Part shown: in pieces, positions 25,910-49,770 of the stretch | Position numbering within the stretch: the first letter of the stretch is position 1 | How the letters are laid out: each line of letters begins with the position of its first letter | DNA from: Streptomyces sp. B21-083 | Lineage (GTDB): Bacteria > Actinomycetota > Actinomycetes > Streptomycetales > Streptomycetaceae | Direction: 5' to 3' | Assembly (NCBI RefSeq): GCF_036898825.1 | Contig: NZ_JARUND010000001.1 | Span: forward strand, 3,100,001-3,164,000 | Length of the DNA stretch: 64,000 nt | The notes under the pieces: generated by a model | Databases searched by the model: none | What the model was told of the DNA's origin: nothing | What the model saw: the letters and a program-made list of their open reading frames with translations, nothing else | Program-made: the position numbers and the translations under genes

Positions 25910-26194
25910 GGCACCTGTGAGGCACCTGTGAGGGAGGGCGGGAACCGACGGTGACACGAAGGCGTTGAACAGACGCGGTGCGATGGACGTATTGACAGGA
26001 GGCGATAAGGGGAGACTCTGACTGAAGCTTCAGGCATCATCTGTGTCGCCCGTCCGCCCTCACCTCTTCTCTTCCTGGCCACCACCCCGTCACGCGGACT
26101 GGGAACGCTCCTGGTGTCCCCCTTGCCTCGCTCTTCATTTCCCCCCGTCCGCCCCCGCAGCGCGTGGGCGCAACGTGGAAGGACGACGCGCGCT

Positions 26195-28176: not shown

Positions 28177-29316
28177 TCAGTCCCGGCGGGCCACCAGGCG
28201 GTACGCGTTGGAGACGCCCACGCGGTGGGAGATCGGGCGGACGGCGAAGCGGTCCAGCAGGGTGCCCAGGATCAGCGCGGGGACGCCGGCCAGCAGCAGG
28301 GCTCCGCGCAGGGTGCGGCGCAGGGCGTTCGGCGGCTGCGGAAGCCACGGGAGGTTGTCGCGCGGGGCGGCGTTGTCGAGGGCCAGCCAGACGGCGGCGA
28401 GCAGGTCGACGGGGTCGTGCGGCTCGGCGTGCTGCTCCAGGACGACGGTGAAGCCCAGCTCGGTGAGCCGCTGCCGGAGGTTGTCGACGGGCACGAAGTG
28501 CAGGTGCTGGGGCTGGAGCCAGGGCAGCCACCAACGGCCGAGCAGCCGGGCGTAGCGGCTGTCGGGGTCGGGGACCTCGATCACCAGGTGTCCGCCGGGT
28601 CGGATGGCCTGCCGGGCGGCCTCCAGTTCGAGCGGGGGCTCGGTGCTGTGCTCCAGGTAGTGGAACATGCTGACGACGTCGTAGTGGGCGGCCAGTTCGG
28701 GGGCCAGCTCGGTGAAGCTGCCCCGGTAGCCGTGTTCGACGCGTCCCGCCCGCTCGGCGAGTTCGGCGCCGTCGGTGAAGTCAAGCCCGTCGAAGGTCGT
28801 GCCGGTGTGGACGACCCGGGCCGACTCACAGAAGTGGCCGTGGCCGGTGCCGACGTCGAGCCAGTTTTTCGGCGCGTCGTCGAAGGGGAGCAGGGCTCGG
28901 GCCCGCTGCTCGTACATTTTGGTGCGGCCCGCGAAGGTGTTGCCGAGCTGCTTCTCGCCGAGCCCGTCGTAGAAGTCGCGGTAGTAGAACTCCAGCCCGG
29001 CGGGGTTGAGCCGGGGGTTCTGGAAGGTGTGCCGGCAGTCCTCGCAGCGGTCTAGCACGAACCGTCCGGGCTTGTGCTGGAGCAGGTCGGTGGTCCGCAG
29101 CCGGGTCGTGAGCCGGGCCGAGCCGCACCAGGGGCAACTGGTGCGCGGGGGTTCGAAGAACCGGTCGAGGCCGTGGGCCAGGTCGGTCTGGTAGGTGGGC
29201 CGGAGGGCGGACACCTGCTCGGCACGGCTCGGAGCCGCCGGCCCGTCCGGCGCATCCGGCGTTACTGCCGCTTCCGGCGCATCCGCTGTGCTGGTCCCGT
29301 GCTCGTCGTCTCTCAT
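28177..29316 (-). CDS. class I SAM-dependent methyltransferase with zinc-ribbon N-terminus
   Basis: 379-aa methyltransferase. An N-terminal CPWCGS...CEDCRHTFQNPRL pair of CxxC motifs precedes the SAM domain: motif I LDVGTGHGHFCESA, then FDGLDFT, VVSMFHYLEHSTEP and GGHLVIEVPDPDS. It has the Methyltransf_23 layout common in sugar or lipid-linked modification. A hydrophobic C-terminal segment (ALLLAGVPALILGTLLDRFA) suggests membrane association. The start ATGA overlaps the glycosyltransferase stop. Last gene of the synthase operon; probably methylates the sugar or acyl product. Confidence 0.88.
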   Translation of the reverse strand: MRDDEHGTSTADAPEAAVTPDAPDGPAAPSRAEQVSALRPTYQTDLAHGLDRFFEPPRTSCPWCGSARLTTRLRTTDLLQHKPGRFVLDRCEDCRHTFQNPRLNPAGLEFYYRDFYDGLGEKQLGNTFAGRTKMYEQRARALLPFDDAPKNWLDVGTGHGHFCESARVVHTGTTFDGLDFTDGAELAERAGRVEHGYRGSFTELAPELAAHYDVVSMFHYLEHSTEPPLELEAARQAIRPGGHLVIEVPDPDSRYARLLGRWWLPWLQPQHLHFVPVDNLRQRLTELGFTVVLEQHAEPHDPVDLLAAVWLALDNAAPRDNLPWLPQPPNALRRTLRGALLLAGVPALILGTLLDRFAVRPISHRVGVSNAYRLVARRD

Positions 29317-30518
29317 ACCGTCTCCTTGGCGGGCGCGCCGATGGCGAGTTGCTCAAGATGGGTGGCCGCCGCCGAGGCACCTCCGGCGGCCCGGAACGCG
29401 GTACGGATCCGGCTCGCCGCGAGGCGGTGGCCGGGCTCGTGCAGTACGGCGTCGATCGCCGCGCCCAGTTTCGGCGCGGTGACCCGCCCGAACCGCACCC
29501 GGATGCCCGCCCCGGCCGCCACGACCTGACCGGCGACCACGGGCTGGTCGTCCCGGATAGGCGCGACGACAAGCGGTACCCCGTGCCAGAGCGCCTCGCA
29601 CACGCTGTTGTGCCCGGCGTGGCAGACGACGGCGTCGACCCGTTCCAGGAGCGGGAGTTGGGGCGCGGAGGGGACGATCAGGACATCTTTGTCGTCGTCC
29701 CCGCCCGGGGTGCTTCCGAGTACGCCCGCCGGATCGACGATCACCGTCTGCACCCGCTCCGCCCGCTCTCGTGCGGCGACCTGACACTCCGACAGAAAAC
29801 GTGCTCCGACATCGGTGTTGGCGGTGCCGAGGGTGACGAGGACGGTGGCGCGGGCCGGGTCGAGCCAGTCCCAGGGGAAGCCGGGCGCGGCGGGCCGGTC
29901 GGCGACGGACGGGCCGACGTATCGGATCTGGTCGCCCGTCCGGGCATCCGGGCCGACGAACTCCGGGGTGCTGAAAGCGAGTACGAGGTGCGGGGAGAAC
30001 CGTGGGTCTGCGGTGCCGGCGGGATCACCGACGCGGTCCCGGAGGCCCGCGAGCAGCTCGTCCAGCCACTCGGCGACCTTGGGCATGCCGGACAGTACGT
30101 CGGTGAACTCGGCGGAGGTGGTCGCCGAGGTCGCCCACGGCAGTCCCAGCCGCTCGGCGACGAGGCCACCGGCGAGGGCCTGTTGGTCGGCGACGACCAC
30201 GTCCGGCCCGAACTCCCCCACGGCGGCGGCGACTCCGGGAGCCATCTCCTCGGCGAGCGGGGCGAGGAAGTGTTCCCAGAGGAACTTCAGCGCCTCGGGC
30301 CCCCGCATGTCCGGCGGTCGTACGCCGTCACCGGAGCCGGGGACGGGCCCGGCGCACGGGAAGACGGTGACGTCCTCACCGACGAGCTTCCCCACGAGTC
30401 CCGGATCCGCGCACACCCAGGCCGACTCGTGGCCGCGCGAGGCGAGTTCGGCGGCGACCCCGACAGCCGGGTTGATGTGCCCGACGAGCGGCGGCACGAC
30501 GAACAGGAACCGGCTCAC
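29313..30518 (-). CDS. GT1-family (MGT-type) glycosyltransferase
   Basis: 401-aa GT-B enzyme of the kind that glycosylates polyketides and lipids. The N-terminal acceptor domain starts MSRFLFVVPPLVGHINPAVG. The C-terminal nucleotide-sugar domain has VLVTLGTANTDVG and the signature VDAVVCHAGHNSVCEALWHG followed by PLVVAPIRDDQPVVAGQVV. It overlaps the hydrolase gene upstream (4 bp) and the methyltransferase downstream (4 bp). It implies a glycosylated product of the PUFA/PKS-like synthase. The sugar donor cannot be told from sequence. Confidence 0.93.
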   Translation of the reverse strand: MSRFLFVVPPLVGHINPAVGVAAELASRGHESAWVCADPGLVGKLVGEDVTVFPCAGPVPGSGDGVRPPDMRGPEALKFLWEHFLAPLAEEMAPGVAAAVGEFGPDVVVADQQALAGGLVAERLGLPWATSATTSAEFTDVLSGMPKVAEWLDELLAGLRDRVGDPAGTADPRFSPHLVLAFSTPEFVGPDARTGDQIRYVGPSVADRPAAPGFPWDWLDPARATVLVTLGTANTDVGARFLSECQVAARERAERVQTVIVDPAGVLGSTPGGDDDKDVLIVPSAPQLPLLERVDAVVCHAGHNSVCEALWHGVPLVVAPIRDDQPVVAGQVVAAGAGIRVRFGRVTAPKLGAAIDAVLHEPGHRLAASRIRTAFRAAGGASAAATHLEQLAIGAPAKETV

Positions 30519-31342
30519 CGCGCTTCCGCCCCCGCCAGTGGAACCGGGGCTGCCGCACCGAGGATGAGCGACAGGATGTGCCCGCCGACCGTCCCCGACG
30601 CCTCGACGAGCACGGAGTGTTCGTGTCCCGGCACGACGACGGTCCGGCAGTCGGGCAGCACCGACTCCAGCCAGGGCGCGAGTCCGGCGAGGTCCGAGTC
30701 GCCCCCGTACACACCGAGTACCGGGCAGCGTACGGAACCGGTCTCGTCGTCGGTCAGGACACGGCTGGCCGGGATGTCCTGGGCCAGGGTCGTCTCGCGG
30801 GCCAGCCGGGCGGCGCCCTTGGCTAGGCGGGCGGTGTTCTGGCCTCGGTTGGCGGTGATCCAGGCGATGGCGTCGGCCTCGTTGTGCGCGAGTTCGTGCA
30901 TGACCCGGCCGAGGATGCCGTCGAGTTTGCCCGCCCAGGCGGCGGTCGCCGGTTCCGACTCGATGAGGGAGACGCTGGCGGCCCGCTCCGGGTGGCGGGC
31001 GGCGTATCCGAACGCGACTGTCCCGCCGTAGGAGTTGCCGACGAGATGGACCGGGCCGGTCACCTCCAGACGGTCGAGGAGGGCCTCCAGGTCGTCGATG
31101 TTGTCGTCGAGCGTGTAGCCGGTGGCGGGGCGGCTGGAGCGGCCGTGGCCGCGCAGGTCGTACATGACGACGTCGATGCCGGAGGCGGCGAACGCCGGTG
31201 CCACGGTGAAGTAGTAGCTGGCCAGACTGTCGGTGAGCAGGCCGTGCACGAGGACGGCGGTCGCGGCGACCGGCCGTCCGCCGCGCGGGCCGATGCGCTG
31301 GGCGTGCAGCCGGAGGCCGCCGCCGATGTCGACGTGTCCCAT
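30515..31342 (-). CDS. alpha/beta hydrolase (thioesterase-like)
   Basis: 275-aa alpha/beta hydrolase. HG oxyanion motif VLVHGLLTDS, YDLRGHGRS, nucleophile elbow LVGNSYGGTVA (Ser), acid YGGDSDLAG and catalytic His VPGHEHSVL. In this operon position, just after the ACP, it is a good candidate for releasing or editing the acyl chain, though esterase or haloperoxidase-fold roles are not excluded. ATG 31342 lies 2 bp after the ACP stop. Confidence 0.88.
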   Translation of the reverse strand: MGHVDIGGGLRLHAQRIGPRGGRPVAATAVLVHGLLTDSLASYYFTVAPAFAASGIDVVMYDLRGHGRSSRPATGYTLDDNIDDLEALLDRLEVTGPVHLVGNSYGGTVAFGYAARHPERAASVSLIESEPATAAWAGKLDGILGRVMHELAHNEADAIAWITANRGQNTARLAKGAARLARETTLAQDIPASRVLTDDETGSVRCPVLGVYGGDSDLAGLAPWLESVLPDCRTVVVPGHEHSVLVEASGTVGGHILSLILGAAAPVPLAGAEAR

Positions 31343-31344
31343 GG

Positions 31345-31674
31345 TCAGCCCGCCTCCGCCGCTTTGAGACTGGCGACGACGTGCTCGACGAGCCGGCCGA
31401 CGGTGAGTTCGATGATCTCGTCGAAGTCCATGTCGGCCAGGAACTCGGCGAAGTTGACCCGGTTGCCGTACTTCTCCTCCAGCATCCCCGCCAGCGTCAC
31501 CAGGTCGATGCTCTCCAGCTCCAGGTCGCGGTTGAAGGTGGTGTCCATCCGGATCTCGACGTCGTCGAGGCCGTACTCGTCCAGGAGGGCCGCGAGCATG
31601 CCCCTGATGTCGGCGAGCACCGCCTCCTCACTGACGACACCGGTTCTGGTCGTGTGCCCGTTGAGGCTGGTCAT
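31345..31674 (-). CDS. free-standing acyl carrier protein
   Basis: 109-aa carrier. The phosphopantetheine site is LELESIDLVTLAGMLEEKYG (Ser within ESI, a DSL variant). Helix 1 (DIRGMLAALLDEYGLDDVE) and the C-terminal helix (FDEIIELTVGRLVEHVV) are present. It starts at ATG 31674. If the upstream synthase is corrected for the missing base at 31758-31762, its TGA overlaps this ATG (ATGA). It would carry a starter, or the finished chain to the hydrolase or glycosyltransferase. Confidence 0.9.
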   Translation of the reverse strand: MTSLNGHTTRTGVVSEEAVLADIRGMLAALLDEYGLDDVEIRMDTTFNRDLELESIDLVTLAGMLEEKYGNRVNFAEFLADMDFDEIIELTVGRLVEHVVASLKAAEAG

Positions 31675-34600
31675 CGGTCCAACTCTCCTTGTTCTGCTGC
31701 GACTTCTTCGGCCGGTCCGGTTGTCCAGGCCACGACGTACTCCCTGTCGGGCAGTCCGGGGGATTGCCCGTCTGCTCGCAGTGCACGGTGTAGGCGGGCG
31801 CGAGCCGGCCGGAGACGGTGAGCCGGTCGCCCGCGTCCGTGGCCTCCCGCACCGCGAAGTCCCTTGGCCGGCCGCCGAATCCGGTGCCCTCCGCCTTCGC
31901 GACGGCCTCCTTGGCCGCCCAGAAGCGGGTGAACCAGAGCGCCTCGGACTCGCCGTCGGCGTCCGACCTGGCCCGCAGCAGGGCGAGTTCGGCCGGGCCG
32001 AGGGCGGTGGTGAGGGTGGAGGCGTCCCGCTCGACGACTTCCTCGATGTCGATGCCGGGCCCTTGCCCTGTATCCGGACGGGCGCCGGAGGCCGGCCCCG
32101 GCCGGGACGGCCGTACGATCGCCACGCCCGCCTCTGCCCGATGGGCGAGCGAGACGTCCAGCGGGGGCAGGGTCCGGCCGTGCGTCCCGGTGACGTACGG
32201 CCGCCCGGTCGCGTCGTTGTGCACCCGCAGCTCCGCCGGGAACACATCACCCTCGCCCTCCCGTTCCCAGAGCCACCGGCGCACGGCGTCCTTGGCGGCG
32301 ATCCGTCCGAGCAGCCACTGTCTGCGACCGCGCGGGGCGTGCCGCTCGTACTGGGAACGCTCCTCCCCACCAAGGGAGTTGCGCATGATGAGGTCGCGCG
32401 AGGCGAGGTCGGGCCAGCGTTCGTGGAGGAGCACCCAGCCGCCCGGCCGGGCCTGGGAGAGGGTGTTGCGCTCGGGGAAGCGTTCGACGGGCCTGGTCTG
32501 CGGGTCGTTGTCGAAGCGCCGGTCCTGCCAGCCGCTCAGCTCGGCCCAGACCTCGCCGCCGACGGCCAGTTGGACGTCCGCTTCGAGGACGGTGTCGGTG
32601 AGCGAGGTGATCCTCACGAAGCAGTCGACGTCGGTGCCGGGTTCGGGGTGCGGCCCGTAGAACCTCATCGTTCGCATCCCGACCGGGAACACGACCGTCC
32701 GCGAGGTGCGTGTCGCCATGATCCAGTACCCGAGGATCTGCCCGACGTTGTCGAGGAGCGAGCCGGGCGCGGGCGGGGTCGTGATGACTCCCCGTACGTG
32801 CGCCTCGCCCAGCGCGGTGAGTTCGGTGACCCCCTGGAACGCCGGGCCGTGGAACATCCAGCGCTCGGCGTAGAGCTGGGCGGCGGTGTGGTCGGGGGCG
32901 CGTTCGGTGGCGGAGGTTGTGGGCCAGGGGGTGGGGCGGGCCGTCAACTCCGGGTAGTTGTCGGCGAGTTCTACGGTGGCTCGGGCGCGGGGGCCGAATG
33001 AGACGGCCCGGTGGGTGGGCGATCCGGGGACGGGGGTGACGGTCACGTCCACGTCGACGGGCGGGGTGGCCGTGAGCCACTGGTCGAAGCGGGCGCCGTG
33101 CACGGCCACGGGTACGGGTACGGGTACAGGTACAGGTACAGGTACGGCTCGGGTTCCGGGGTGCGTCCGCGCCGCCGAGAGCTGGGCCGCTTCCATCATG
33201 TGCTGCACGATCGTCGTCGCCGGGACCACCGGCCACCGGTCGGCCACGTCCGGCCAGCCGGGGCGCTGAGGGAAGAAACAGTGGTCGAGGAGGTACGGCA
33301 TGGTGTCCGGCGAGACGTGGACCGTGGTGCGCCAGGGGGCCGGGGCGGCCTGGGCGCTGGAAGGCGCGACCCCTTCCTGACCGCGCCAAGGGGGTGGGGC
33401 GGCCTGAGTGGCGGGAGGCATGACCCCTTCCTGACCGCGCCAAGGGGGTGGGGCGGCCTGAGTGGCGGGAGGCATGACCCCTTCCTGACCGCGCCAAGGG
33501 GCTGGGGCGGCCTGAGTGGCGGGAGGCGCGACCCCTTCCTGACCGCGCCAAGGGGCTGGGGCGGCCTGAGTGGCGGGAGGCATGACCCCTTCCTGACCGC
33601 GCCAAGGGGCTGGGGCGGCCTGAGTGGTGGACGGCATGACCCCTGCCTGACCGGCCGGGACGGCGCCCCCTGCGGGCCCGCCCGGCCCCCGCGAAGCATC
33701 CCCGGCGGACCCGCCCGACCCCTGCACGGCGCCGCCCGCGTAGGCCCCGGTGGAGCCCGGTCGGCGATGGCCCGCGCCGATCAGTTCGGCGGCGGTGTCG
33801 GCCGTCTCCCGTAGCAGGGCGCTGAGTTCGGCGGCGGCCGGGAAGCGGGCCGCGAGTGCGTCCAGCGGCGACGCCAGCCCGGCGGCCGGGAGCGCGGCGC
33901 AACCAGGTGTCCGCACGATGCCCAACGCCGGGGCAGCATCAGCCTGTTGTGCTGCGGCGGCGGCCGAGGCGGCGACCCGCGACGGACCGGCACCTCGCGG
34001 CGCGGCGGCGGCCGGGACCTCGGTGGCCGAAGGCCGTGCGGGGTTGCTCACGGAACCCGGCCTCGAACCCGGCCTCGAACCCAACTCCGCCCGCAGTCGC
34101 GTGAGCGTCCCTTCGTCGAGGGAGACGAGGGCGCCACCCAGGTCGAGGCGGACGGGCGGGCGGGTGGACGGCCGGCCCCTCCGCACGGAGGCCGGCGTGT
34201 CGGCCGGTGCCGTGGAGCGGTCGGAGGGGCCGGCGGCGCGGGGTGCCGGGGCGGCGGAGACGTCGGCGCTGCCAGCGGTGCCGACGGTGGCGGCGGTGGC
34301 GGCGGTGGGTGGAAGCGCCGGTGATGTCGTCCGGCCGGAAACCCACAACGCCGTTGCCACACGCCGGAGTTGTGCCAGGCCGCCGCGGTGCGGGGAGTTC
34401 GCGGCTATGACCAGATGATCGCGCCCCGCCAGCGTGTCGCCGATGAGAGAGCCGAGTTGGCCGGTGCCCACCTGGACGAAGGTCCGGTGGCCGGCCGCGT
34501 ACATCGCCTCGACCAGCTGCCGGAAGCGCACCGGTTCCAGGAGATGCCGTACGAACAGTTCACGCACCGCCGACTCACCCGAAGGGAAGGGCGCCGCAGT

Positions 34601-37075: not shown

Positions 37076-37080
37076 GTCGC

Positions 37081-40000: not shown

Positions 40001-43000
40001 TCGGCACGCACCGCGTCGGCGTCGGGGCCATAGGGGGCCGCCGTACGGTTGGACCACACCGGGAACTCCGGAGCGCGCACGGGCTGTTGGGCCAGCGCGT
40101 TCGCGAAGCGCTCGCCTGCCCCGGCGACCAGCGGGCTGTGGAAGGCACAGGCGACGGGGATGCGCTTCGCGCCGAGTCCGGCGGCGCGCAGCAGCCGTAC
40201 CGCCTCGTCGACCGCCTCCGTCGGGCCTGAAATCACCGTCTGCTTGGGCGAGTTGTGGTTGGCGATGACCACCGAGGTGGGCGCGTCCGCCGCGCGCAGG
40301 GCCGCCGTGACGTCCTCGGCTCCCGCCGACACCGCCGCCATGGTGCCCGGGTCGTCGCTGTTGGCCCGCGCTGCCGCCGAGAGGATCGCGGTCGCGCGTT
40401 CCGCGCTCAGGGCGAGAAGGGTTTCCGGGTCGAGGGCGCCGGCCGCGCTGAGGGCGACGAGTTCGCCGTAGCTGTGTCCGGCGGCCATGTCGGGACGTAC
40501 GCCGGCCGTGGTGAGGAGGGCGTGGGCGGCGAGGCCGGCGATGCCCAGGGCCGGCTGGGCGGTCCGGGTGTCGGTGAGCGCGGTGTGCTGGCGGTCGCGG
40601 GTGGTGTCGTCGAAGGCGGTGGGCGGGTAGAGGAGGTCGGCGTGGTCGCGGCCGAGTTCCAGGTAGTACTGGAGTTCGGGGAGAGCGACGAACACGTCGG
40701 CGAGCATCCCGGTCCGCTGGCTGCCCTGCCCGGGGAAGAGGAAGGCGACCTGGCCCGGCGCCTGGCCCGCCGCCTCCTCCTGCTGCTGGTGCTGCGCGAG
40801 GTGGACGCCGGCGCGGGGATCGTGCTCCCCCGCCAGTGCCCGCCGCAACTGTCCGACGAGGCCCGCCGTGTCCGTCGCGACGACCGCCACCTGTACGGGC
40901 TCGTGGCGGGCGTCGGAGCGGCGCGAGGCGGCGAGCGCGAGGTCGCGCAGCCGCCAGGAGGACTGCCCGTCCTGGGCTGCTTTCAGCACGTCCTCGATGG
41001 CTCGGCGTGCCCCGGCCGGATCGGCCGCCCGGAACGTGAACAGTTCGGCGGGCCAGGCGTCGAGGGTGTGCGCGGGCGGGGCGGAGTCGGCGTAGGCCTC
41101 CAGCACCACATGGAAGTTGGTGCCGCCGAAGCCGAACGCGCTGAGCCCCGCTCGTCGTTCGCGTGCCGGAGCCGCCCAGGGCCGGGTCCGCCCGTGGAAC
41201 ACGAACGGGCTACTGGTCTCGTCCCAGGCGGCGTTGGGCTTGCTGACGTGCAGGGTGGGTGGCTTGACCCCGGTGTGCAGGGCGAGCACGGTCTTGATGA
41301 GGCCGGCCAGTCCGGCGGCGCACTTGGTGTGCCCGATCTGCGACTTGACCGAACCGAGCGCGACAGCCCCCGGTTTGGCCCCGGCTTCGCTGAACACCTC
41401 GCTGAGGATGGTGAGTTCGGTGCGGTCACCGACCACGGTTCCGGTGCCGTGCGCCTCGACGAGCCCGACCTCGGCGGGCGAGACCCCTGCGTTGCGGTAC
41501 GCCCGCTGCAGCGCGGCCCGCTGGCCCTCGGGCCGGGGAGCGGTCAGCCCGAGGGAACGCCCGTCGCTGGAACTGCCGACTCCCTTGATGACGCCGTAGA
41601 TCCGGTCGCCGTCACGCTCGGCGTCCGACAGCCGCTTCAGCACGACACACGCGACGCCCTCCCCCAGCGCGATCCCGTCCGCCGAGCTGTCGAAGGCGCG
41701 CGAACGCCCGGTCGGGGACAGGGCGTGCACGGAGGAGAAGAGCACGTAGTCGTTGATGCCGTTGTGCAGGTCGGCGCCGCCGCACAGCACGACGTCGCTG
41801 GTCCCGCCGACCAGTTCCTTGCAGGCCACGTCGACGGCGGCCAGCGAGGAGGCGCACGCGGCGTCGACCGTGTAGTTGGCGCCGCCGAGGTCGAGGCGGT
41901 TGGCGATCCGGCCGGAGATCACGTTGGAGAGCATGCCGGGGAAGGAGTCCTCGGTGAGCCGGGGCAGCTGATCCACGAGCCCGTCCGGCACCTTGCCGTA
42001 GTACGACGGCAGTACGGCGCGCAGCGTGCCCGCGTTGGACAGGTCACTGCCCGCCTCCGCGCCGAAGACGACCGAGGTGCGTGAGCGGTCGAACTCCCGC
42101 CCCCGCTCGCCGTATCCGGCATGCGCCAGGGCCCGGCGGGCGGCTTCGAGGGCCAGCAGCTGGACGGGCTCGATGCTGCCGAGCGAGGTGGGCGGAATGC
42201 CGTAGGACAGCGGGTCGAAGGGGATGCGGGGCAGGAAGCCGCCCCACTTGGAGGACGTGACGCCACCGTCCCCGTCCTCGGCCGAGTAGTGCACGGCGGG
42301 GTCCCAGCGGTCGGCCGGCACCTCCGCCACCGCGTCGTGACCGCCGAGGACGTTCGCCCAGAAGGCGGCGAGGTCGGGGGCGTCCGGGAACATACAGGCC
42401 ATGCCCACCACGGCGACGTCGAGGGGCGCGGGCGGCGGGGCTTCGGTGTCCTCCTCGGCCGCCGGCACACCGAGCCGCTCCCGCAGCTGGGCCGCCCGCC
42501 CGGTGAGGAAGTCGGCGGCGCCGTCGGCCACGGAGTGGTGCAGCGCCTCGATGGTGGTGGTCGCCGAGCGCAGTACGGCCACTTCCCCGGCCATGAACAT
42601 GCCCTCGGCGAGCTGCCGTTGCTCGTCCACGGCCGCCAACTCGCCCTCCACGTCCCGCTCGACGCCCTTGCTGGCGATCCGCAGCCGCCCGACGTTCAGC
42701 CGCTCCAGGCGCTCCCAGATCTGCCGCTCGGGCACCCCGCTCGCCCGCAACTCCGCCTCGAAATCGCGGTAGTTGTCGCTGAACGGGCTGGGTACGCACC
42801 GGGTGGCATGACCGGGCGCCGTCTCCAGCAGCGCGGTACTGGTCGCGTCGACGACCTGGCGCTGGAAGAGCGGCTGGACCGCTCCGCAGGCCACCGCCTC
42901 GTCGGTGAACAGGTAGGCGGTGCCCATCAGTACGCCCACGGACGCACCGCGCGCGGTCAGTGGGGCGGCGAGGGCGGCGACCATCGCGGCCGACCGCTCG

Positions 43001-44538
43001 TCATGGATGCCACCCGCGAAGAACACCTCGATCCGCTCGGCGGCACCCTCCCCCGCACCGGCCAGGTAGTCCTCGATGACGGCGAGTTGGGCCTCCCAGA
43101 GCGGAAAGCTGCCGCGCGGTCCGACATGCCCGCCGCACTCCGACCCCTCGAACACGAACCGGCGTGCCCCGGCCTCCAGGAACTGCTTCAGCAGTCCCGG
43201 CGAGGGCACGTGCAGGAAGGTGCTGATCCCGGCCCGCTCCAGCGCCTCGGCCTGGGCGGGTCGGCCGCCCGCGATGACGGCGTGCGTCGGCCGCAGCTCC
43301 CGTACGGCTTCGAGCTGGGCGTTTCGCAGTTCCTCGGGCGCGAACCCGAGCACGCCGACACCCCAGGGCCGGTCGTCCCCGACGGCTTCCCGGGTCTCGG
43401 CCAGCATGGCCCGGCTCTGCTCGCCACTGGCGAGGGCCAGCGCGACAAACGGCAGCGCACCACCCCGGGCGACGGCTGCGGCGAACCGCGCCTGGTCACT
43501 GACTCGGGTCATCGGCCCCTGGGCGAGCGGGAGTTGAGTACCCAGGGCCCGGCTCATCGGAGAACCGGCGCGCAGCGCCCGCAGGGGCCCCGCACCCCGC
43601 ACGCCATCCCGTTCGCCATCCCATACGTCGTCCTGTACACCGTCCCGTACGACGTCTCGTACGACGTCGCGGACCGCGTCGGTGAGGGCGCGGACCGTGC
43701 GGGCGGTGTCGCCCCAGTGGTCGGCGAAGCGGGCGGCGAGGAAGCCGTCCTGGCCGACCGGGAGGAGCTGGGTGCGCGGGTTCTGGGCGCCGAGCATCGC
43801 CGCGACCGCCGCCGGATCACCGGCCGGGACGGACGGGGCGTCGGGGCCACGCCGGTGCAGTACGCGGTGACCGGCCAGGACGACGGTCTCCGAGCCGTCC
43901 ATCGAGCGCAGGGCGGCTGCCGTCGCCTCCGGCAGTGAGGACTCGGCGAGCAGGGCGAGTTGGCTGTCGAGCACGATGCCCGCCGCTCCCCCGGCGACGG
44001 CGGCGGCGGCCGTACGGGGGCCGATGCCGCCACGCGCCCAGACGGGGAGGCCGATGCCGGGTTCGGCGAGGAGCCGTTGCAGGAGGACGAAGGTGCTGAG
44101 GTCGCCGATCCGGCCGCCGCCGTCGCTGCCCCGGGCGATCAGCCCGTGCGCACCGGCGCGGACGGCCGCGAGGGCCTCCTCCAGGTCGGTGACCTCGACG
44201 AGGACGCGGTGGTGGGCGGCGAGCGCGGCGACCGGCCGGAACGCGTCGGCGGCATCGGGGGCGAGGATCACGGTGTCGGGTCCCCCGTCGCCGACCAGGT
44301 CGGCGGGGGTGAGCCGGCAGTGCGGCCCGATCCGTACGCCGTAGCGGAAGCCGGAGGCGGAGGGGGCTGCGAGGTGGCGTATTCGGGCCAGCGCGTCTCT
44401 GGCTCTCCGGTCGCCGAGGCCCAGGTCGAGTACGCCCAGGCCGCCCGCACGGCTGACCGCGGCGGCGAGCCGTGCGTCGGGCTCGCCGAAGGGGGTGACT
44501 CCAATGATCATGTCAGCGGCGCGCACGGCAGACGTCAT
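37081..44538 (-). CDS. PUFA/PKS-like synthase: ER-like x2-KS-AT-ACP-ACP-KR
   Basis: 2485 aa. Residues 1-260 and about 320-690 are two flavin (nitronate monooxygenase/PfaD-like) TIM-barrel domains; the second carries PLAQGPMTRVSD and GSECGGHVGPRG. KS about 705-1145 with C895, H1030, H1070. AT about 1265-1560 with GHSYGE (S1356) and H1467. Two near-identical ACPs with VDSIKR/IDSIKR (S1778 and S1886), the PUFA-synthase ACP motif. KR about 2005-2470 with VGGARGIT and the active-site Ser/Tyr region (FGSISAV, QVDYAAAND). ATG 44538 is preceded by GGAGA; GTG 44568 is less likely. First gene of the operon. Confidence 0.93.
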   Translation of the reverse strand: MTSAVRAADMIIGVTPFGEPDARLAAAVSRAGGLGVLDLGLGDRRARDALARIRHLAAPSASGFRYGVRIGPHCRLTPADLVGDGGPDTVILAPDAADAFRPVAALAAHHRVLVEVTDLEEALAAVRAGAHGLIARGSDGGGRIGDLSTFVLLQRLLAEPGIGLPVWARGGIGPRTAAAAVAGGAAGIVLDSQLALLAESSLPEATAAALRSMDGSETVVLAGHRVLHRRGPDAPSVPAGDPAAVAAMLGAQNPRTQLLPVGQDGFLAARFADHWGDTARTVRALTDAVRDVVRDVVRDGVQDDVWDGERDGVRGAGPLRALRAGSPMSRALGTQLPLAQGPMTRVSDQARFAAAVARGGALPFVALALASGEQSRAMLAETREAVGDDRPWGVGVLGFAPEELRNAQLEAVRELRPTHAVIAGGRPAQAEALERAGISTFLHVPSPGLLKQFLEAGARRFVFEGSECGGHVGPRGSFPLWEAQLAVIEDYLAGAGEGAAERIEVFFAGGIHDERSAAMVAALAAPLTARGASVGVLMGTAYLFTDEAVACGAVQPLFQRQVVDATSTALLETAPGHATRCVPSPFSDNYRDFEAELRASGVPERQIWERLERLNVGRLRIASKGVERDVEGELAAVDEQRQLAEGMFMAGEVAVLRSATTTIEALHHSVADGAADFLTGRAAQLRERLGVPAAEEDTEAPPPAPLDVAVVGMACMFPDAPDLAAFWANVLGGHDAVAEVPADRWDPAVHYSAEDGDGGVTSSKWGGFLPRIPFDPLSYGIPPTSLGSIEPVQLLALEAARRALAHAGYGERGREFDRSRTSVVFGAEAGSDLSNAGTLRAVLPSYYGKVPDGLVDQLPRLTEDSFPGMLSNVISGRIANRLDLGGANYTVDAACASSLAAVDVACKELVGGTSDVVLCGGADLHNGINDYVLFSSVHALSPTGRSRAFDSSADGIALGEGVACVVLKRLSDAERDGDRIYGVIKGVGSSSDGRSLGLTAPRPEGQRAALQRAYRNAGVSPAEVGLVEAHGTGTVVGDRTELTILSEVFSEAGAKPGAVALGSVKSQIGHTKCAAGLAGLIKTVLALHTGVKPPTLHVSKPNAAWDETSSPFVFHGRTRPWAAPARERRAGLSAFGFGGTNFHVVLEAYADSAPPAHTLDAWPAELFTFRAADPAGARRAIEDVLKAAQDGQSSWRLRDLALAASRRSDARHEPVQVAVVATDTAGLVGQLRRALAGEHDPRAGVHLAQHQQQEEAAGQAPGQVAFLFPGQGSQRTGMLADVFVALPELQYYLELGRDHADLLYPPTAFDDTTRDRQHTALTDTRTAQPALGIAGLAAHALLTTAGVRPDMAAGHSYGELVALSAAGALDPETLLALSAERATAILSAAARANSDDPGTMAAVSAGAEDVTAALRAADAPTSVVIANHNSPKQTVISGPTEAVDEAVRLLRAAGLGAKRIPVACAFHSPLVAGAGERFANALAQQPVRAPEFPVWSNRTAAPYGPDADAVRAELAAQIGAPVGFVAQIEAMYEAGARTFVEAGPGSVLTRLVGQILGDRPHRTVACEPRPDSGLHGWLDALAQLAVAGLPVRTGWLFHGRDAVDATRTKAPKRPGWTVDGHLVRTAAGELLPGALAPARRVVETTTVTANHQDGTPVGGRDALISEFLRTSREMVAAQRDVLLTYFGAAPGQWIPGPTAPETLRAVQTQVQQPAPETAPAYPPALYAVPAPASVSTAEGFTEAEVLGVVLEIISERTGYPVDMIEPDLDLEADLSVDSIKRAEIAGELAQRLGVGGGGDLTVLGDAELEDLAKARTAAGVTAWLAARLTTAGPEPVPAPASVSTAEGFTEAEVLGVVLEIIGERTGYPVDMIEPDLDLEADLSIDSIKRAEIAGELAQRLGIGGGGDLTVLGDAELEDLAKARTAAAVTAWLAARLTGPDEVEQQGAAGVVGAAAQPLPTEVAAVSPSPEVIGEAPKRFQLRPVLLEQQDGNGTLNGTLNGSGPGSVGPAAVLAGKRFAILGDDDGGAVAQEVVARLAGHGAGAFVLDAEHLLTGADGPIDGVLYLDPLASSRPPVLPEAFPVFKAALGLAPRWLFAVRVTTEGGTETAELRSAGLHGFIRTVAREYPETDARVIDLVGDDTGAAAVADALLGELLAPDRTPVVLRTAAGRHGLELIETPLGALGTTGAGPAGAGAAEAAALGLDRDSVVLLVGGARGITAKFAAALASASRCRIELLGRTPAAEGPEDAATAAAGTRTELRAALAGRGGLTPAAINREAELLLAQREITTTLDELAALGSQARYHSVDFREQDAALQAVKEIHAEHGRLDGVVYAAGVIEDRLIAEKTSESFQRVYGTKTTGAETLLAALEQLPNRPAFAVLFGSISAVLGNRGQVDYAAANDALQSLGAAWAARTGQRALTVHWGPWAPTGGHTGMVTPELGREYARRGVRLIDPEEGTAALLRELAWGAESAGAVVYTSSGW
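38735..39350. repeat. 324-bp direct duplication encoding the two ACP domains
   Basis: Two consecutive copies with a 324-bp period (for example, the serine codon region recurs at about 38882 and 39206). They differ by few bases, mostly silent, and the encoded 108-residue units are almost identical including the Ala/Pro linker. This suggests a recent duplication or ongoing gene conversion. Confidence 0.85.
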
Positions 44539-45012
44539 GATTCTCCGAAATACTCGGTGAAACTGCACGGTGGGGGTTTTGTGTGGCGCGGAAGCACTTC
44601 ACCTCAGAGGGAAACCACGGGGAAGCTAGCGCCGACATTACTCACGAGTCAACATGGCGTGGAACATTCCGTATGCGGCCGATTCCATTCGGCCACCACC
44701 GCCGAGCCACCCCAAGTCCCGAAAAACCGCCCAATTCCAATAAGTTTCGACGTCGCCGCAGACCGGCGGGGTGCCTCTGGATGTCAGCAAGCCGTCAGAC
44801 AACCGGTCGAATTCACTTCCGCCTCACGCCTCGGAAACACGGCGGACAGGGGATAAAAACCTTGTAAATTCCTCGCGAGCACATCGCGACGGCCGAATCC
44901 GGGCATGCCGAAGTCGCCGCTTCGGCACGGCCAAAGGCCGCTGCCCGGCGACACTGACAGACCATCTAATTCCACACCCCCTGCCGGAACAAGAGGCAGG
45001 ACACGACAGAAC
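44539..45012. promoter_or_regulatory. upstream region of the synthase operon
   Basis: About 470 bp without a gene and noticeably richer in A/T than the surroundings. It must hold the promoter of the synthase operon on the minus strand. I see no clear operator palindrome or -10/-35 pair that I can defend. Confidence 0.5.
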
Positions 45013-45048
45013 GAGCCGACCTCCCGGCAAAACCCGGAAGGTCGGCTC
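45013..45048 (-). terminator. terminator of the MFS gene
   Basis: 15-bp stem (GAGCCGACCTCCCGG with its near-perfect complement, one G-U) and a 6-nt loop, 21 bp after the MFS stop, separating it from the synthase promoter region. Confidence 0.75.
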
Positions 45049-45069
45049 GCTACGAGGGCCCAGCGGCGG

Positions 45070-46536
45070 TCAGGCCTTCGTCTCGGACACCTCCGGAGCG
45101 GGGGCCTCCGGAGCCGGCTCGGTTACCTCGGCGACCTCCAGCGGGCGGACCGGGATGAGGAAGGCGACGACCGCGGCCGCGAGGCCGATACCGCAGCCGA
45201 TCATCATGGCGGCCCGGAAACCGGCCTCGGAGGGCAGCGCGAAGCCACCGAAGTCGTTGGTCATCTGGGCCAGGACGACCCCGATGACAGCGGCCGAGAC
45301 CGAGCTGCCGATCGAACGCATCAGGGTGTTGAAGCTGTTGGCGGAGGCGGTCTCGGACTGCGGGACGGCGCCCATGATGAGCGCCGGCATGGCGCCGTAG
45401 GCGAAGCCGACACCCGTGTTGCAGACGATGGTCACCGCGAGCAGACCCCACGTGGAGCCGGTGCCGACGATCGGCAGCGAGATGCCGTACCCGATGGCGA
45501 TGACCAGGCTGCCGAGGGAGAGCGTGATCCTGGGACCGGACTTGGCGGAGAGCATGGCGCCGAGCGGCGACATGACCATCATCATCAGGCCGGCCGGAGC
45601 CATCCACAGCCCCATGGCGAGCATGGACTCGCCGAGCCCGTAGCCGGTCTCCTTGGGCAGCTGCATCAGCTGGGGGATGACCAGGGCCTGCGCGTACATC
45701 GCGAACCCGACGAGGATCGAGGCCGCGTTGGTCATCAGCACCTGCGGACGGGCGGTCACCCGGAGGTCGACCAGCGGCTCGGCGTTGCGCAGCTCCCACC
45801 GGCCCCAGGCCAGCAGCACGACCACGGCGACGGCGAACAGCCCGAGGGTGGTGCCACTGCCCCAGCCCCAGTCGGCGCCCTTCGACACGGCGAGGAGGAG
45901 GCAGACCAGCGCGGTGCCGAGCCCGATCGCGCCGAGCACGTCGAAGCGCCCGGCGGCGATGTTCTCGCGCCCGTCGGGCACGAAGACCGAGATCAGCGTG
46001 GCGACGGCGAGGGCCAGCGCGGCCACGACCCAGAACAGCACCCGCCAACTGGCGTTCTCGGCGATCGCCGCGGAGAACGGCAGCCCGAGCGCGCCGCCGA
46101 CCCCCATGGAGGCGCTCATGATCGCGATGGACGAACCGAGTTTCTCCGCCGGTACGACGTCACGCATCAGGCTGATGCCCAGCGGGACGACGCCCATGCC
46201 CATGCCCTGCAGTCCGCGCCCGGCGATCATCGGGAGCACGGAGGAGGACAGCGCGCAGAGGACGGAGCCCAGGACGAGCGGCACGAGCGAGGCGAGCAGC
46301 ATGCGCTTCTTGCCGTACATGTCGCCGAGCCGGCCGGCGACCGGCGTCACGACCGCAGCGGCCAGCAGGGTGGCGGTGATCACCCAGGAGGCGTTCGAGG
46401 CGGAGGTGTCGAGCAGGGTCGGCAGCTCCCCGATCAGCGGGACCACGAGGGTCTGCGTGACCGCGGCCACGATGCCGGCGAAGGCAAGGATGCCGACAAC
46501 TCTGCCGGAGCCGGCGTCGGGCTTGGAACTGTCCAC
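45070..46536 (-). CDS. MFS drug transporter (DHA2/EmrB type)
   Basis: 488-aa proton-driven exporter with about 14 predicted helices. Conserved motif A is GRLGDMYGKKRMLLASLVPL; motif C-like MGVGGALGLPFSAAIAENAS follows. The C-terminal tail is acidic and cytoplasmic. Together with the divergent MarR regulator it forms a typical inducible efflux pair. Its place next to the synthase operon makes it a candidate exporter or self-resistance pump for the product (inference). GTG 46536 with GAGGGAG upstream. Confidence 0.92.
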   Translation of the reverse strand: MDSSKPDAGSGRVVGILAFAGIVAAVTQTLVVPLIGELPTLLDTSASNASWVITATLLAAAVVTPVAGRLGDMYGKKRMLLASLVPLVLGSVLCALSSSVLPMIAGRGLQGMGMGVVPLGISLMRDVVPAEKLGSSIAIMSASMGVGGALGLPFSAAIAENASWRVLFWVVAALALAVATLISVFVPDGRENIAAGRFDVLGAIGLGTALVCLLLAVSKGADWGWGSGTTLGLFAVAVVVLLAWGRWELRNAEPLVDLRVTARPQVLMTNAASILVGFAMYAQALVIPQLMQLPKETGYGLGESMLAMGLWMAPAGLMMMVMSPLGAMLSAKSGPRITLSLGSLVIAIGYGISLPIVGTGSTWGLLAVTIVCNTGVGFAYGAMPALIMGAVPQSETASANSFNTLMRSIGSSVSAAVIGVVLAQMTNDFGGFALPSEAGFRAAMMIGCGIGLAAAVVAFLIPVRPLEVAEVTEPAPEAPAPEVSETKA

Positions 46537-46573
46537 TGGGTCACTCCCTCGGAGAGGATGCAGATGACACGAT

Positions 46574-46604
46574 GTGCATAATGCACGAGGAGTGCATCAT
46601 ACAT
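46574..46604. promoter_or_regulatory. MarR operator (putative)
   Basis: Perfect palindrome GTGCAT-A-ATGCAC (46574-46586) and a second, imperfect copy GTGCATCATACAT (46592-46604), between the divergent MFS and MarR genes. Spacing of 18 bp puts them on the same helix face region. Confidence 0.7.
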
Positions 46605-46680
46605 ATCGTCGGCGAACGCACTAACTTTGGAGGGGGCCCACCGAGGGGAAGGCCCGTTCAGAGCCGAAGGAAGCAGCCGC

Positions 46681-47184
46681 ATGGACAAACCCGTTGATCT
46701 GGTCGAGTTCGAGATGATGCTGCTCGGTCGGTACATGCATCTGCTCTCACCGACGGCGCGGGGCGCGGTGGGACGGCTCGACCGCAGCGCGTACATCGTC
46801 CTCAGCCGTATCCAGGTGGAGGGGCCGATGTCCATCGGCCAGCTCAGCGCCGCGTTCGGCCTGGACGTGTCCACGCTCAACCGGCAGACCGCCGCGATGG
46901 TCCGCGCCGGAATCGTCGAACGCATCCCCGACCCCGAGGGGGGCATCGCGCGCAAGTTCGCGATGACGGGGGAGGGCGAGCGCCGCCTGGCGGCCGACCG
47001 TACGGGGAACCGGGAGGGCCTGGCCAAGGTGGTGGTCGACTGGACGGCCGAGGAGGTCGCGGACTTCGCCGCCCACCTGAGCCGCCTCAACCGTGACGTG
47101 GAGCGACTGGACGGCCGGCCGTGGCCGCGCGACCGAACGGCGCCACCGACAAGCGGTGAACGATCGTTCACACTTGAAGAGTGA
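46681..47184 (+). CDS. MarR family transcriptional regulator
   Basis: 167-aa winged-helix regulator. Dimer helices flank the DNA-binding part: SRIQVEGPMSIGQLSAAFGL, DVSTLNRQTAAMVRAGIVER (recognition helix) and the wing IPDPEGGIARKFAMTGEGER. It is divergent from the MFS exporter with GTGCAT palindromes between, so it most likely represses both genes until a phenolic or lipid ligand binds. ATG 46681 follows GAAGGAAG. It may report the product level of the neighbouring cluster. Confidence 0.92.
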   Translation: MDKPVDLVEFEMMLLGRYMHLLSPTARGAVGRLDRSAYIVLSRIQVEGPMSIGQLSAAFGLDVSTLNRQTAAMVRAGIVERIPDPEGGIARKFAMTGEGERRLAADRTGNREGLAKVVVDWTAEEVADFAAHLSRLNRDVERLDGRPWPRDRTAPPTSGERSFTLEE

Positions 47185-47270
47185 ACCATCTCGGCATGAA
47201 TTGCCCCTGACATGGGCAGAGTTGAGGTGCGCCGACCGTCCCGCGCCGCACTTCGGGAGGCAGCCCAGTC

Positions 47271-48581
47271 ATGCACCCCGAGCCGGACCCCCGTACCCGC
47301 CGCCCTTCCCACCACCCTGCCCCCCGCCGGGTCGTCGTCACCGGTCTGGGCGCTGTCACCCCGCTCGGCGTCGGAGTCCCCGACCTCTGGCGAGGGCTCC
47401 TCGAAGGCCGGTGCGGCATAAGGGAGTTGACCGGCGAGGAGTTCAGCGACCTGCCGGTCCGGGTGGCCGGCACGGTTCCGGTGGACCTGGCCGGGCTGCT
47501 CCCCCGCCCCCAGGCCCGCCGGATGAACCGGGCCGCGCAGTTCGGCGTACTGGCAGCGCGGGAGGCCTGGCGGGACGCCGGGTTCGACGGTTCGGGCACG
47601 GAGGCGAGCGGTCTGTCACCCGAGCGTGTGGGGGTCTCGGTGGGCGCGATCCTGGGTGACGCCTCGGTCCTCGTCGGCGGCGACCGCAGGCTCCGCGACA
47701 AGGGTCCCCGAGCGGTCTCGCCGCTCACCACCCCGATGACGGTGCCGTCGCAGGCGGCGTCCCAGATCTCGCTGGACCTGCGCATCACGGGCGAGGCCCG
47801 CACGGTGACCAGCGCCTGCGCGTCGGGCACGGAGGCGATCGGCCAGGCGATCGACCGCATACGGTACGGCCATGTCGACGTCGCCCTCGCGGGAGGCGCC
47901 GAGGCTGTCGTCACACCGGCGATCATGGCGTCGTTCGCCGCGATGCGCGCCCTGTCGACATATCCCGCCGGGGACCTGCCGTCCCGCCCCTTCGCCAGGG
48001 ACCGGGACGGTTTCGTCAACGGTGAGGGCGCGGGTTTCCTGCTCCTGGAGTCCGAGGAGCACGCCCGGGCGAGGGGCGCCCGCGTCTACTGCGAGGCAGC
48101 CGGCTGGGGCCTGTCGGCCGACGCCCACCACATGGCGGCACCGGACCCCTCGGGCACCGGCGTGGCCCTGGCCCTCCACCGTGCCCTGCGCGACGCCGGA
48201 GGCCGTCCCGCCGACGTGATCCACGTCAACGCCCACGCCACGGCCACGATCGACGGCGACCTCGCGGAGGCGAACGCACTGCGGGCGGTACTGGGCGCGG
48301 TGGGCACGCTCCGCGTCCCCGTCACGGCCCTCAAGGGCCACCTCGGCCATCTCCAGGGCGCCGCGGGCGGGGTGGAGGCGGTGGCCACGGCCTTGACCCT
48401 GCACCACGGCACGATCCCGCCGACGATCGGTTGCGCGGAGGGCGAGCAGGACGAGGCGATCGACCTGGACGTGGTGCGGGGCGGCCCACGCCCGCTGCCC
48501 GACCACGGCGATCTGGCCCTCAGCAACTCGTTCGGGTTCGGCGGTCACAACGCGGTGCTGGCGCTACGGCGGGTGGGGTAG
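47271..48581 (+). CDS. beta-ketoacyl-ACP synthase II-like protein (FabF type)
   Basis: 436-aa condensing enzyme. RRVVVTGLGAVTPLGVG opens the thiolase fold; the catalytic triad is Cys in VTSACASGTEA, His in HVNAHATATIDGD and His in LKGHLGHLQGAAG; FGFGGHNAVL closes it. Not a chain-length factor, because the Cys is present. It could extend or prime the acyl chain together with the free ACP of the nearby operon, although it is on the other strand and 2.7 kb away from the synthases. ATG 47271 (MHPEPDPRTRR). Confidence 0.92.
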   Translation: MHPEPDPRTRRPSHHPAPRRVVVTGLGAVTPLGVGVPDLWRGLLEGRCGIRELTGEEFSDLPVRVAGTVPVDLAGLLPRPQARRMNRAAQFGVLAAREAWRDAGFDGSGTEASGLSPERVGVSVGAILGDASVLVGGDRRLRDKGPRAVSPLTTPMTVPSQAASQISLDLRITGEARTVTSACASGTEAIGQAIDRIRYGHVDVALAGGAEAVVTPAIMASFAAMRALSTYPAGDLPSRPFARDRDGFVNGEGAGFLLLESEEHARARGARVYCEAAGWGLSADAHHMAAPDPSGTGVALALHRALRDAGGRPADVIHVNAHATATIDGDLAEANALRAVLGAVGTLRVPVTALKGHLGHLQGAAGGVEAVATALTLHHGTIPPTIGCAEGEQDEAIDLDVVRGGPRPLPDHGDLALSNSFGFGGHNAVLALRRVG

Positions 48582-49714: not shown

Positions 49715-49770
49715 GTGGTGAACCTTCCTCCGGTGACGTCTTTGCCCTGTTTTCGTGGGATTCTCATCGT

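Follow-up and report, generated by a model that had tools for sequence, protein, structure and literature searches.

A conserved Type M lipid synthase operon in Streptomyces sp. B21-083, a candidate source of glycosylated very-long-chain lipids

A stretch of 64,000 nucleotides from the 10.5 Mb genome of Streptomyces sp. B21-083 (contig NZ_JARUND010000001.1, positions 3,100,001 to 3,164,000; hereafter the window) contains an operon of six minus-strand genes between positions 28177 and 44568. Open reading frame (ORF) and Pfam scans identified two multidomain synthases, S1 and S2, a free acyl carrier protein (ACP), an alpha/beta-hydrolase, a GT1 glycosyltransferase (GT) and a methyltransferase (MT), adjacent genes overlapping or almost touching. 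We propose, with a probability of roughly 60%, that the operon encodes an iterative type I lipid synthase able to activate itself, and that its very long, mostly saturated chain carries one or more hydroxyls and is subsequently glycosylated. The proposal starts from the architecture, the active-site motifs, the conservation and the gene-swap pattern observed in the sequences, from which the chemical steps and the product are inferred. The operon is an ordinary member of the described, uncharacterised Type M kind of "secondary lipid synthases" listed by Shulse and Allen in 2011 (PMC3098273; this and the other papers are cited here from excerpts). The synthase type being already in print, the new elements are comparative: they concern the conserved partners, the exchange of GT for a sulfotransferase, and the distribution.

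S1 consists of two enoyl reductase (ER) barrels, a ketosynthase (KS), an acyltransferase (AT), two ACPs and a ketoreductase (KR), and S2 of a second KS and AT, a dehydratase (DH) and a phosphopantetheinyl transferase (PPTase). This layout and the four smaller genes, as described in an initial annotation, were confirmed by the ORFs and Pfam. The operon was compared at 117 loci, namely 37 fetched neighbourhoods (L044–L080; 33 Streptomyces loci from 32 genomes and four loci from other families) and 80 named loci found through KS2. The latter were the 80 most similar to locus L077 among 575 and do not form a census; five matching genomes (G012, G028, G054, G073 and G084) lie outside the neighbourhood set. 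Presence was scored at 60% query coverage, and absences may be overcounted (L144, which has an MT match, was scored as lacking it). For the main count, loci were required only to contain a DH and 3 kb or more of sequence past it; 103 of the 117 qualified. The free ACP and the hydrolase were found in all 103 and the GT in 99. A stricter filter demanding ER2, KS1, AT1, KR, DH and hydrolase, six parts which consequently cannot be counted there, left 91 loci with the free ACP and AT2 in 91, ER1 in 90, KS2 in 89, PPTase and GT in 87 each, and MT in 61. The order or strand of the detected parts was broken in just three of the 117 loci: L095 and L132 have MT on the opposite strand, and L145, a contig of a metagenome-assembled genome (MAG), has its ACP, hydrolase, GT and MT genes running against the second synthase. 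The operon order is conserved far beyond chance. KS2 was missing from L078 and L079, and in L078 the two synthases are fused into one chain of 3355 aa with a single KS. The same locus encodes after its GT a 353-aa protein (L078:14390-15451) with no Pfam match at 0.01 and, by eye, a likeness to a GHMP/galactokinase fold; in a Myxococcales MAG operon, two hydrolase genes stand in tandem (L156:14690-16220).

The four loci without GT are informative. A sulfotransferase occupies the GT position in three of them (L077, L081 and L082), and L157 has neither gene. Because sulfotransferase and GT both modify hydroxyls, this swap indicates that the chain probably carries a hydroxyl acceptor. The sulfotransferase genes adjoin the hydrolase (L077:16608-17564, L081:16181-17137 and L082:16183-17142); L081 and L082 are from Micromonospora, all three loci are Micromonospora-type, and the KS2 of L077 is 99% identical to that of L081. 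Sulfotransferase–thioesterase pairs are known from terminal-alkene pathways. An ABC exporter gene directly 3' of the GT in nine loci, all devoid of MT, suggests probable transport of the product across the membrane. The C-terminal tail of MT appeared hydrophobic by eye. In 21 loci, including Frankia, Myxococcales and a second Streptomyces clade, MT carries a fused, homologous N-terminal domain of about 280 residues which has a membrane-bound look by eye and gave no Pfam match in the three scanned.

The active sites were inspected in 122 rows: the window, the 117 loci, three plasmid loci resembling the Type P phenolic-lipid synthases, and one Streptomyces plasmid locus. The three KS1 motifs were kept in 95, 103 and 98 of 105 rows, and the Cys-His-His motifs of KS2 in 116, 115 and 114 of 117 rows, which rules out KS2 as a chain-length factor (CLF). 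The motifs GHSYG of AT1 (108 rows), GHSxG of AT2 (118 rows) and GGHxGP of ER2 (104 rows) were found without exception, and FabK was among the solved-structure relatives of ER2. The initial annotation had assumed two flavin ERs. Two NMO/PfaD-like barrels are indeed present, but the first has no catalytic His: in 102 aligned rows the corresponding column holds R 87 times, P eight times, Q and A twice each, L, W and V once each, and never H, the two barrels being matched through the shared motif G-x-E-x-G-G-[H/R]-x-G and not through structure. A pair of active ERs was thus ruled out, and ER1 is apparently one dead ER copy. The DH His motif was found by pattern in 106 of 110 rows and the DH Asp was conserved at 1.00 of 110. 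The hydrolase has its His in all 110 rows and as nucleophile Ser (102) or Cys (eight: L058, L061, L063, L087, L103, L107, L108 and L110). Among 105 rows, the PPTase patterns P1a and P1b' were present in 103 and 97, and P1b and P0 in none. The number of ACPs, judged by the DSIKR pattern, was two in the window and one in most relatives scanned, as compared to four to six in Type A. Given the intact motifs of the reducing set, the synthase appears capable in principle of full reduction, with two intact KSs.

Two KS trees were built, one of 64 rows and one of 38 rows without most long branches, neither including the KSs of PKSE (enediyne polyketide synthase, PKS) or HglE. KS1 and KS2 formed separate clades (support 100/98 and 100/99), neither of which took in the modular KSs of the window's genome (five in the larger tree, four in the smaller). 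Frankia sp. QA3 and Ca. F. nodulisporulans are represented in both clades. Nearest to KS1 stood a Rhodobacteraceae plasmid KS (97/88), followed by Type P (88/29) and PfaA-type KSs. The approximately unbiased (AU) test gave p values of 0.089 for KS1 with KS2, 0.474 for KS1 with Type P, 0.187 for KS1 with the modular clade and 0.151 for KS2 with the modular clade. The separate clades thus do not show the grouping with modular PKSs that would have contradicted the initial annotation. The AU test did not settle the deep order, a sister placement of either KS to the modular clade not being rejected.

We propose the following scheme. The terminal PPTase of S2 would charge the ACPs. AT1 would load malonyl units and KS1 would extend the chain on the S1 ACPs, with KR, the DH of S2 and ER2 performing full reduction in most rounds; in at least one round, probably the last, reduction would halt at KR and leave a 3-hydroxyl. 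Were the first and last rounds to stop at KR, hydroxyls would result at the omega-1 and 3 positions, as in cycloviracin and heterocyst glycolipids. ER1 may act as a structural or FMN-binding pseudo-reductase. KS2 and AT2, at the place of the CLF and PfaB in Pfa synthases, could serve the start of the chain, hydroxylated intermediates, or the hand-over of the completed chain to the free ACP, an off-loading role for AT2 being considered because PfaB is described as a terminal acyltransferase (PMC12895367). There are no sugar-making genes among the operon genes, so a common NDP-sugar, probably glucose, is assumed to be attached by GT1 to the hydroxyl. The hydrolase would free the chain either hydrolytically or through ester transfer; in the latter case the sugar of a second unit is a plausible acceptor, and a macrodiolide would result. 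MT would O-methylate the sugar at the membrane. The Pfa-like iterative logic with a built-in PPTase put forward by the initial annotation is supported by these data, and its reduced, glycosylated lipid agrees with what we infer.

Cycloviracins, fattiviracins and glucolipsins are glucosides of hydroxylated C18–C33 acids closed to macrodiolides; in cycloviracins and fattiviracins the acids are trihydroxy long-chain acids, and cycloviracin sugars are methoxylated (PMC4365757). Their long hydroxylated chains, glucosides and, in cycloviracin, methoxylated sugars would fit the proposed product. The cycloviracin producer Kibdelosporangium albatum is now named Allokutzneria albata, and an A. albata S2 (P0143) surfaced in a search with the Kutzneria S2; it is 62% identical to the window's S2 over 963 columns and 55% over 526 columns. 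The macrodiolide class had been considered before this match emerged. Since the cycloviracin species encodes an S2, the macrodiolide glucolipids (cycloviracin, fattiviracin, macroviracin and glucolipsin) are the leading candidate product class. No gene cluster for them was found in the excerpts of open-licence literature searched.

Several observations weigh against the proposed glycosylated lipid or its macrodiolide form. For A. albata, the link consists of a single protein matched at the species level, in a family rich in such loci. Among the matches listed there was no Streptomyces microflavus, the fattiviracin species, in a search not designed to find it, nor, among those listed for the Kutzneria S2, Nocardia vaccinii, the glucolipsin species. 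The best relatives of the hydrolase in PDB sequence and fold searches were ordinary esterases; its model also came nearest to peroxidase-fold hydrolases, and a curacin thioesterase ranked 47th, so that macrolactonisation has no structural support. MT is absent from 30 of the 91 complete loci. The KS trees contained no HglE or PKSE sequences for comparison, and the excerpts of open-licence literature searched gave no product for any Type M locus. Finally, the near-universality of the operon in Frankiaceae, described below, fits a structural lipid better than an antibiotic.

In the Streptomyces sample, 38 of 101 genomes matched, the window's own included; one (G006), a weak PPTase-only match, was dropped. 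Strong matches were thus present in 37 of 101, 28 of them at 56–100% identity and nine at 39–44%. The S2 search returned at least 120 matches at 76–93% identity, the named ones nearly all from Streptomyces; among those listed, S. turgidiscabies came first with 93% over the KS-AT part, and the locus of S. turgidiscabies Car8 (L130) is 95–97% identical to the window in the five domains covered. The initial annotation had mentioned only distantly similar loci, but close copies are common in Streptomyces and the type was listed as early as 2011 (PMC3098273). In a phylum-wide sample, 10 of 296 genomes matched, three of them weakly and by the PPTase only, leaving seven strong matches with the window's genome included; another count of 296 genomes gave 57 at E up to 0.001, many being weak PPTase-only matches. 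The 80 named loci, as the best of 575, include Kutzneria, Amycolatopsis, Actinopolymorpha, Micromonospora, Catenulispora, Actinokineospora and Frankia, as well as MAGs labelled Myxococcales, Gemmatimonadetes, Acidimicrobiales, Thermoanaerobaculia and Proteobacteria, such labels being fallible. In Frankiaceae, 32 of 35 genomes had an S2 match and the same 32 a GT match (25 of 27 among good genomes). The family assignment is fixed by G597, 100% identical to Frankia sp. QA3; the numbers of matches per genome include fragments of one gene. The three genomes without matches were G404, G554 and G662 (the last 63% complete), and some others carry a second, more distant copy. Streptomyces sp. NBC_01243 carries the whole operon on a linear plasmid of 869 kb (L164), with IS3 and IS6 transposases close by; such a plasmid is a possible transfer route.

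This distribution bears on the strongest rival explanation, in which the same synthase chemistry would serve a structural envelope glycolipid linked to a developmental stage, comparable to heterocyst glycolipids, and not a secreted macrolactone. We regard it as a serious contender at somewhat less than even odds. The presence of S2 and GT in nearly all Frankiaceae, next to their patchy occurrence in Streptomyces, speaks for it, as do the hydrophobic MT tail and the membrane-looking fused domain. Polyhydroxy long-chain lipids reportedly occur in Frankia vesicles, in work attributed to Tunlid and dated 1989. On the other hand, hopanoids are described as the basis of the vesicle envelope in Frankia (PMC5745019), and nine loci carry an ABC exporter. 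No literature joining Frankia, heterocyst glycolipid and vesicle was found among open-licence papers. Both outcomes could be combined in a broader scheme, which is tentative and rather doubtful as a whole: Type M operons would form a single conserved machinery that makes hydroxy very-long-chain lipids, glycosylated or sulfated, in different phyla, yielding antiviral macrodiolide glucolipids of the cycloviracin/fattiviracin class in Streptomyces and Allokutzneria and, in Frankia, a nearly core envelope glycolipid with a bearing on the oxygen barrier, with ER1 as an ancient pseudo-reductase setting the reduction programme. The conserved ACP, hydrolase and GT and the exchange of GT for a sulfotransferase, together with the presence in the cycloviracin species and in nearly all sampled Frankiaceae, turn an "unknown lipid" into testable questions: which glycolipid depends on the operon, and whether the Frankia vesicle wall contains its product.

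The remaining explanations are much weaker. The GT could confer self-resistance or inactivate macrolides, with an unglycosylated lipid as the actual product; its best NCBIfam match is MGT (152 bits, under the cut-off of 260) and its relatives include OleI and YjiC. This is unlikely, as resistance genes are seldom as fixed in position as this GT, which is present in 99 of 103 loci from several taxa and replaced by a sulfotransferase in three. It is very unlikely that the chain primes another enzyme elsewhere in the genome, for example a type III PKS as in the Ars phenolic lipids. The nearest functionally anchored layout, Type P, does have type III PKSs between its two synthase genes, but the operon, to which the search for one was confined, contains none, and it has instead a conserved ACP, hydrolase and GT of its own. 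An omega-3 polyunsaturated fatty acid (PUFA) synthase of the kind making EPA or DHA, already disfavoured, has slighter chances still. KS1 is PfaA-like, the ACPs carry DSIKR, ER2 is PfaD-like and TIGR02813 is the best NCBIfam match of both S1 and S2, but S1 scores 959.5 bits, under the cut-off of 1010.1. Neither a FabA-like DH/isomerase nor a CLF is found among the Pfam domains, KS2 retains Cys-His-His, and a separate Pfa-like cluster with three FabA stretches (L009) exists in the same genome; the candidate was rejected in the absence of the KS-CLF didomain and paired FabA-like DH/isomerases of Types A/B. Least probable of all is a polyene or enediyne-like PKS of the PKSE kind, a single KS-AT-ACP-KR-DH-PPTase chain with no ER, which the domain order and the fused chain of L078 recall: the window has two chains, an extra KS and AT and an ER2 with an invariant catalytic His motif, and the remaining operon genes match just general hydrolase, GT and MT Pfam families. 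The enediyne link of the initial annotation is a resemblance in layout, the level at which PKSE was compared.

Table 1. Features of the operon and neighbouring genes, with coordinates in the window.
Feature	Coordinates	Strand	Evidence or remark
S1: pseudo-ER, ER, KS, AT, ACP, ACP, KR; 2495 aa, GTG start	37081-44568	-	ORF + Pfam
ER1: FMN-barrel pseudo-enoylreductase (apparent)	43639-44523	-	glycine loops intact, catalytic His substituted
ER2: PfaD/FabK-like enoyl reductase	42499-43578	-	GGHxGP motif
KS1: PfaA/Type P-like ketosynthase	41044-42432	-	Cys-His-His intact
AT1: malonyl-type acyltransferase by motif	39709-40773	-	GHSYG, CAFHS
Two tandem ACPs	38719-39333	-	DSIKR motifs
KR: ketoreductase	37249-37914	-	Pfam
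S2: KS, AT, DH, PPTase; 1815 aa as read	31628-37075	-	ORF + Pfam
KS2: ketosynthase, not chain-length factor	35546-37021	-	Cys-His-His intact, separate clade
AT2: occupies PfaB position	34316-35245	-	GHSVG, SGFHT
DH: PKS-type double hot-dog (PS-DH)	32396-33316	-	DHCFF...PVVPATT and LLDxxGQ
PPTase	31781-32275	-	P1a TGRP, P1b' VSLAH
Free acyl carrier protein	about 31345-31674	-	LESID
Alpha/beta-hydrolase	30515-31342	-	HG, GNSYGG, His
GT1 glycosyltransferase, macrolide-GT/YjiC-like	29313-30518	-	Pfam, NCBIfam
MT: class I SAM methyltransferase	28177-29316	-	N-terminal CPWC...CxxC zinc ribbon
LPG_synthase_TM (flippase-like) membrane protein, convergent neighbour	26114-27238	+	in 13/117 loci
MFS gene, neighbour	45070-46536		
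MarR gene, neighbour	46627-47184		
FabF-like KS gene, neighbour	47271-48581		

The MFS, MarR and FabF-like KS genes had been counted as cluster parts in the initial annotation. The genes exist, but they rarely travel with the operon: an MFS-like protein was found in eight of the 122 rows and MarR in two (the window, counted in both, and the close relative L104), and another close relative, L045, has MarR and FabF by tblastn. In view of this rarity they were ruled out as members and are neighbours only. The membership of the LPG_synthase_TM gene is unsure. Compared to the relatives L044–L047, the S2 reading frame diverges from about position 31756 (window 31628-31756), beyond the PPTase core, which may be an assembly error or a real change. 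A tRNA-Leu called by ARAGORN at 35114-35207 falls inside S2 and was not accepted as real. Rfam at gathering thresholds gave no match in 26000-50000, and a search of viral contigs gave none. Genes for Ku and a LigD primase-polymerase (non-homologous end joining, NHEJ) adjoin the cluster at 48617-50643.

Among known systems, the second Pfa-like cluster of the same genome (L009; G000:C2:1270000-1289500) is a separate locus with a KS-AT-ACP2-KR protein and a partner containing three FabA stretches. The cluster also has a weak additional KS-like stretch (29%) and, by eye, a PfaD-like protein (GGHTDNRP). Both are Pfa-derived iterative synthases and the L009 KS is 47% identical to KS1, but neither the FabA stretches nor the weak KS-like stretch have a counterpart in the window operon. 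L009 adjoins genes for a ThiF/nitroreductase-domain protein and an AMP-binding protein. It resembles the S. coelicolor SCO0124-0129 cluster by layout only and not by sequence; that cluster is annotated "eicosapentaenoic acid" (PMC2374992, PMC6414726, PMC5932044) and is classified as Type L, with PUFA production not shown there (PMC3098273). The heterocyst glycolipid synthase (hgl, Type F) offers a Pfa-like synthase serving a glycolipid, as proposed here, but it has KS-CLF-AT (hglC) and no DH (PMC3098273), whereas the window has a DH and no CLF.

Type M is listed from Actinosynnema, Frankia, Renibacterium and Streptomyces avermitilis (PMC3098273), and in Renibacterium a fused pfaD-pfaA and a pfaBC with PPTase are described, a layout like that of S1 and S2 (PMC13291983). 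The window S1 and S2 have the fused pfaDA and pfaBC-PPTase layout of this type, and in the trees built here the window KSs cluster with Frankia KSs, from strains other than the three of the paper. The PPTase has the Type M motifs P1a x(G/D)xP (TGRP) and P1b' hShxH (VSLAH) and not (F/S)NxSH; these are ascribed to Types N–T as well (PMC3098273) and are therefore not specific for Type M. Nothing in the excerpts distinguishes the window from Type M, to which the present analysis adds the free ACP, hydrolase, GT and MT, unmentioned there, as conserved partners; a conserved partnership of GT, ACP and hydrolase with the synthase was not found in the excerpts of open-licence literature searched.

The closest functionally anchored relatives, and the firmest anchor, are the Type P phenolic-lipid synthases. 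On plasmid pBIND02 of Beijerinckia indica, a strain listed as Type P (PMC3098273), an ER1-ER2-KS-AT-ACP-ACP-KR protein is followed by two type III PKSs, a DH-PPTase protein and, after it, a glycosyltransferase. S1 has the same layout and the window shares the DH-PPTase arrangement, with KS1 51–54% identical to those of Beijerinckia and Methylosinus and the DH-PPTase 31–32% identical over 74% of the query. In contrast, the window S2 contains an additional KS and AT, the operon has its own ACP, hydrolase, GT1 and MT, and type III PKS genes are missing from it. Type P acids, such as behenic acid, are C22–C26, and Azotobacter belongs to the same type (PMC3098273). The Azotobacter example, the characterised one of this type and known here by description only, involves ArsA, which reportedly makes C23–C25 acids, and ArsD, its PPTase (PMC4824345); there, the basic engine thus makes long chains without double bonds.

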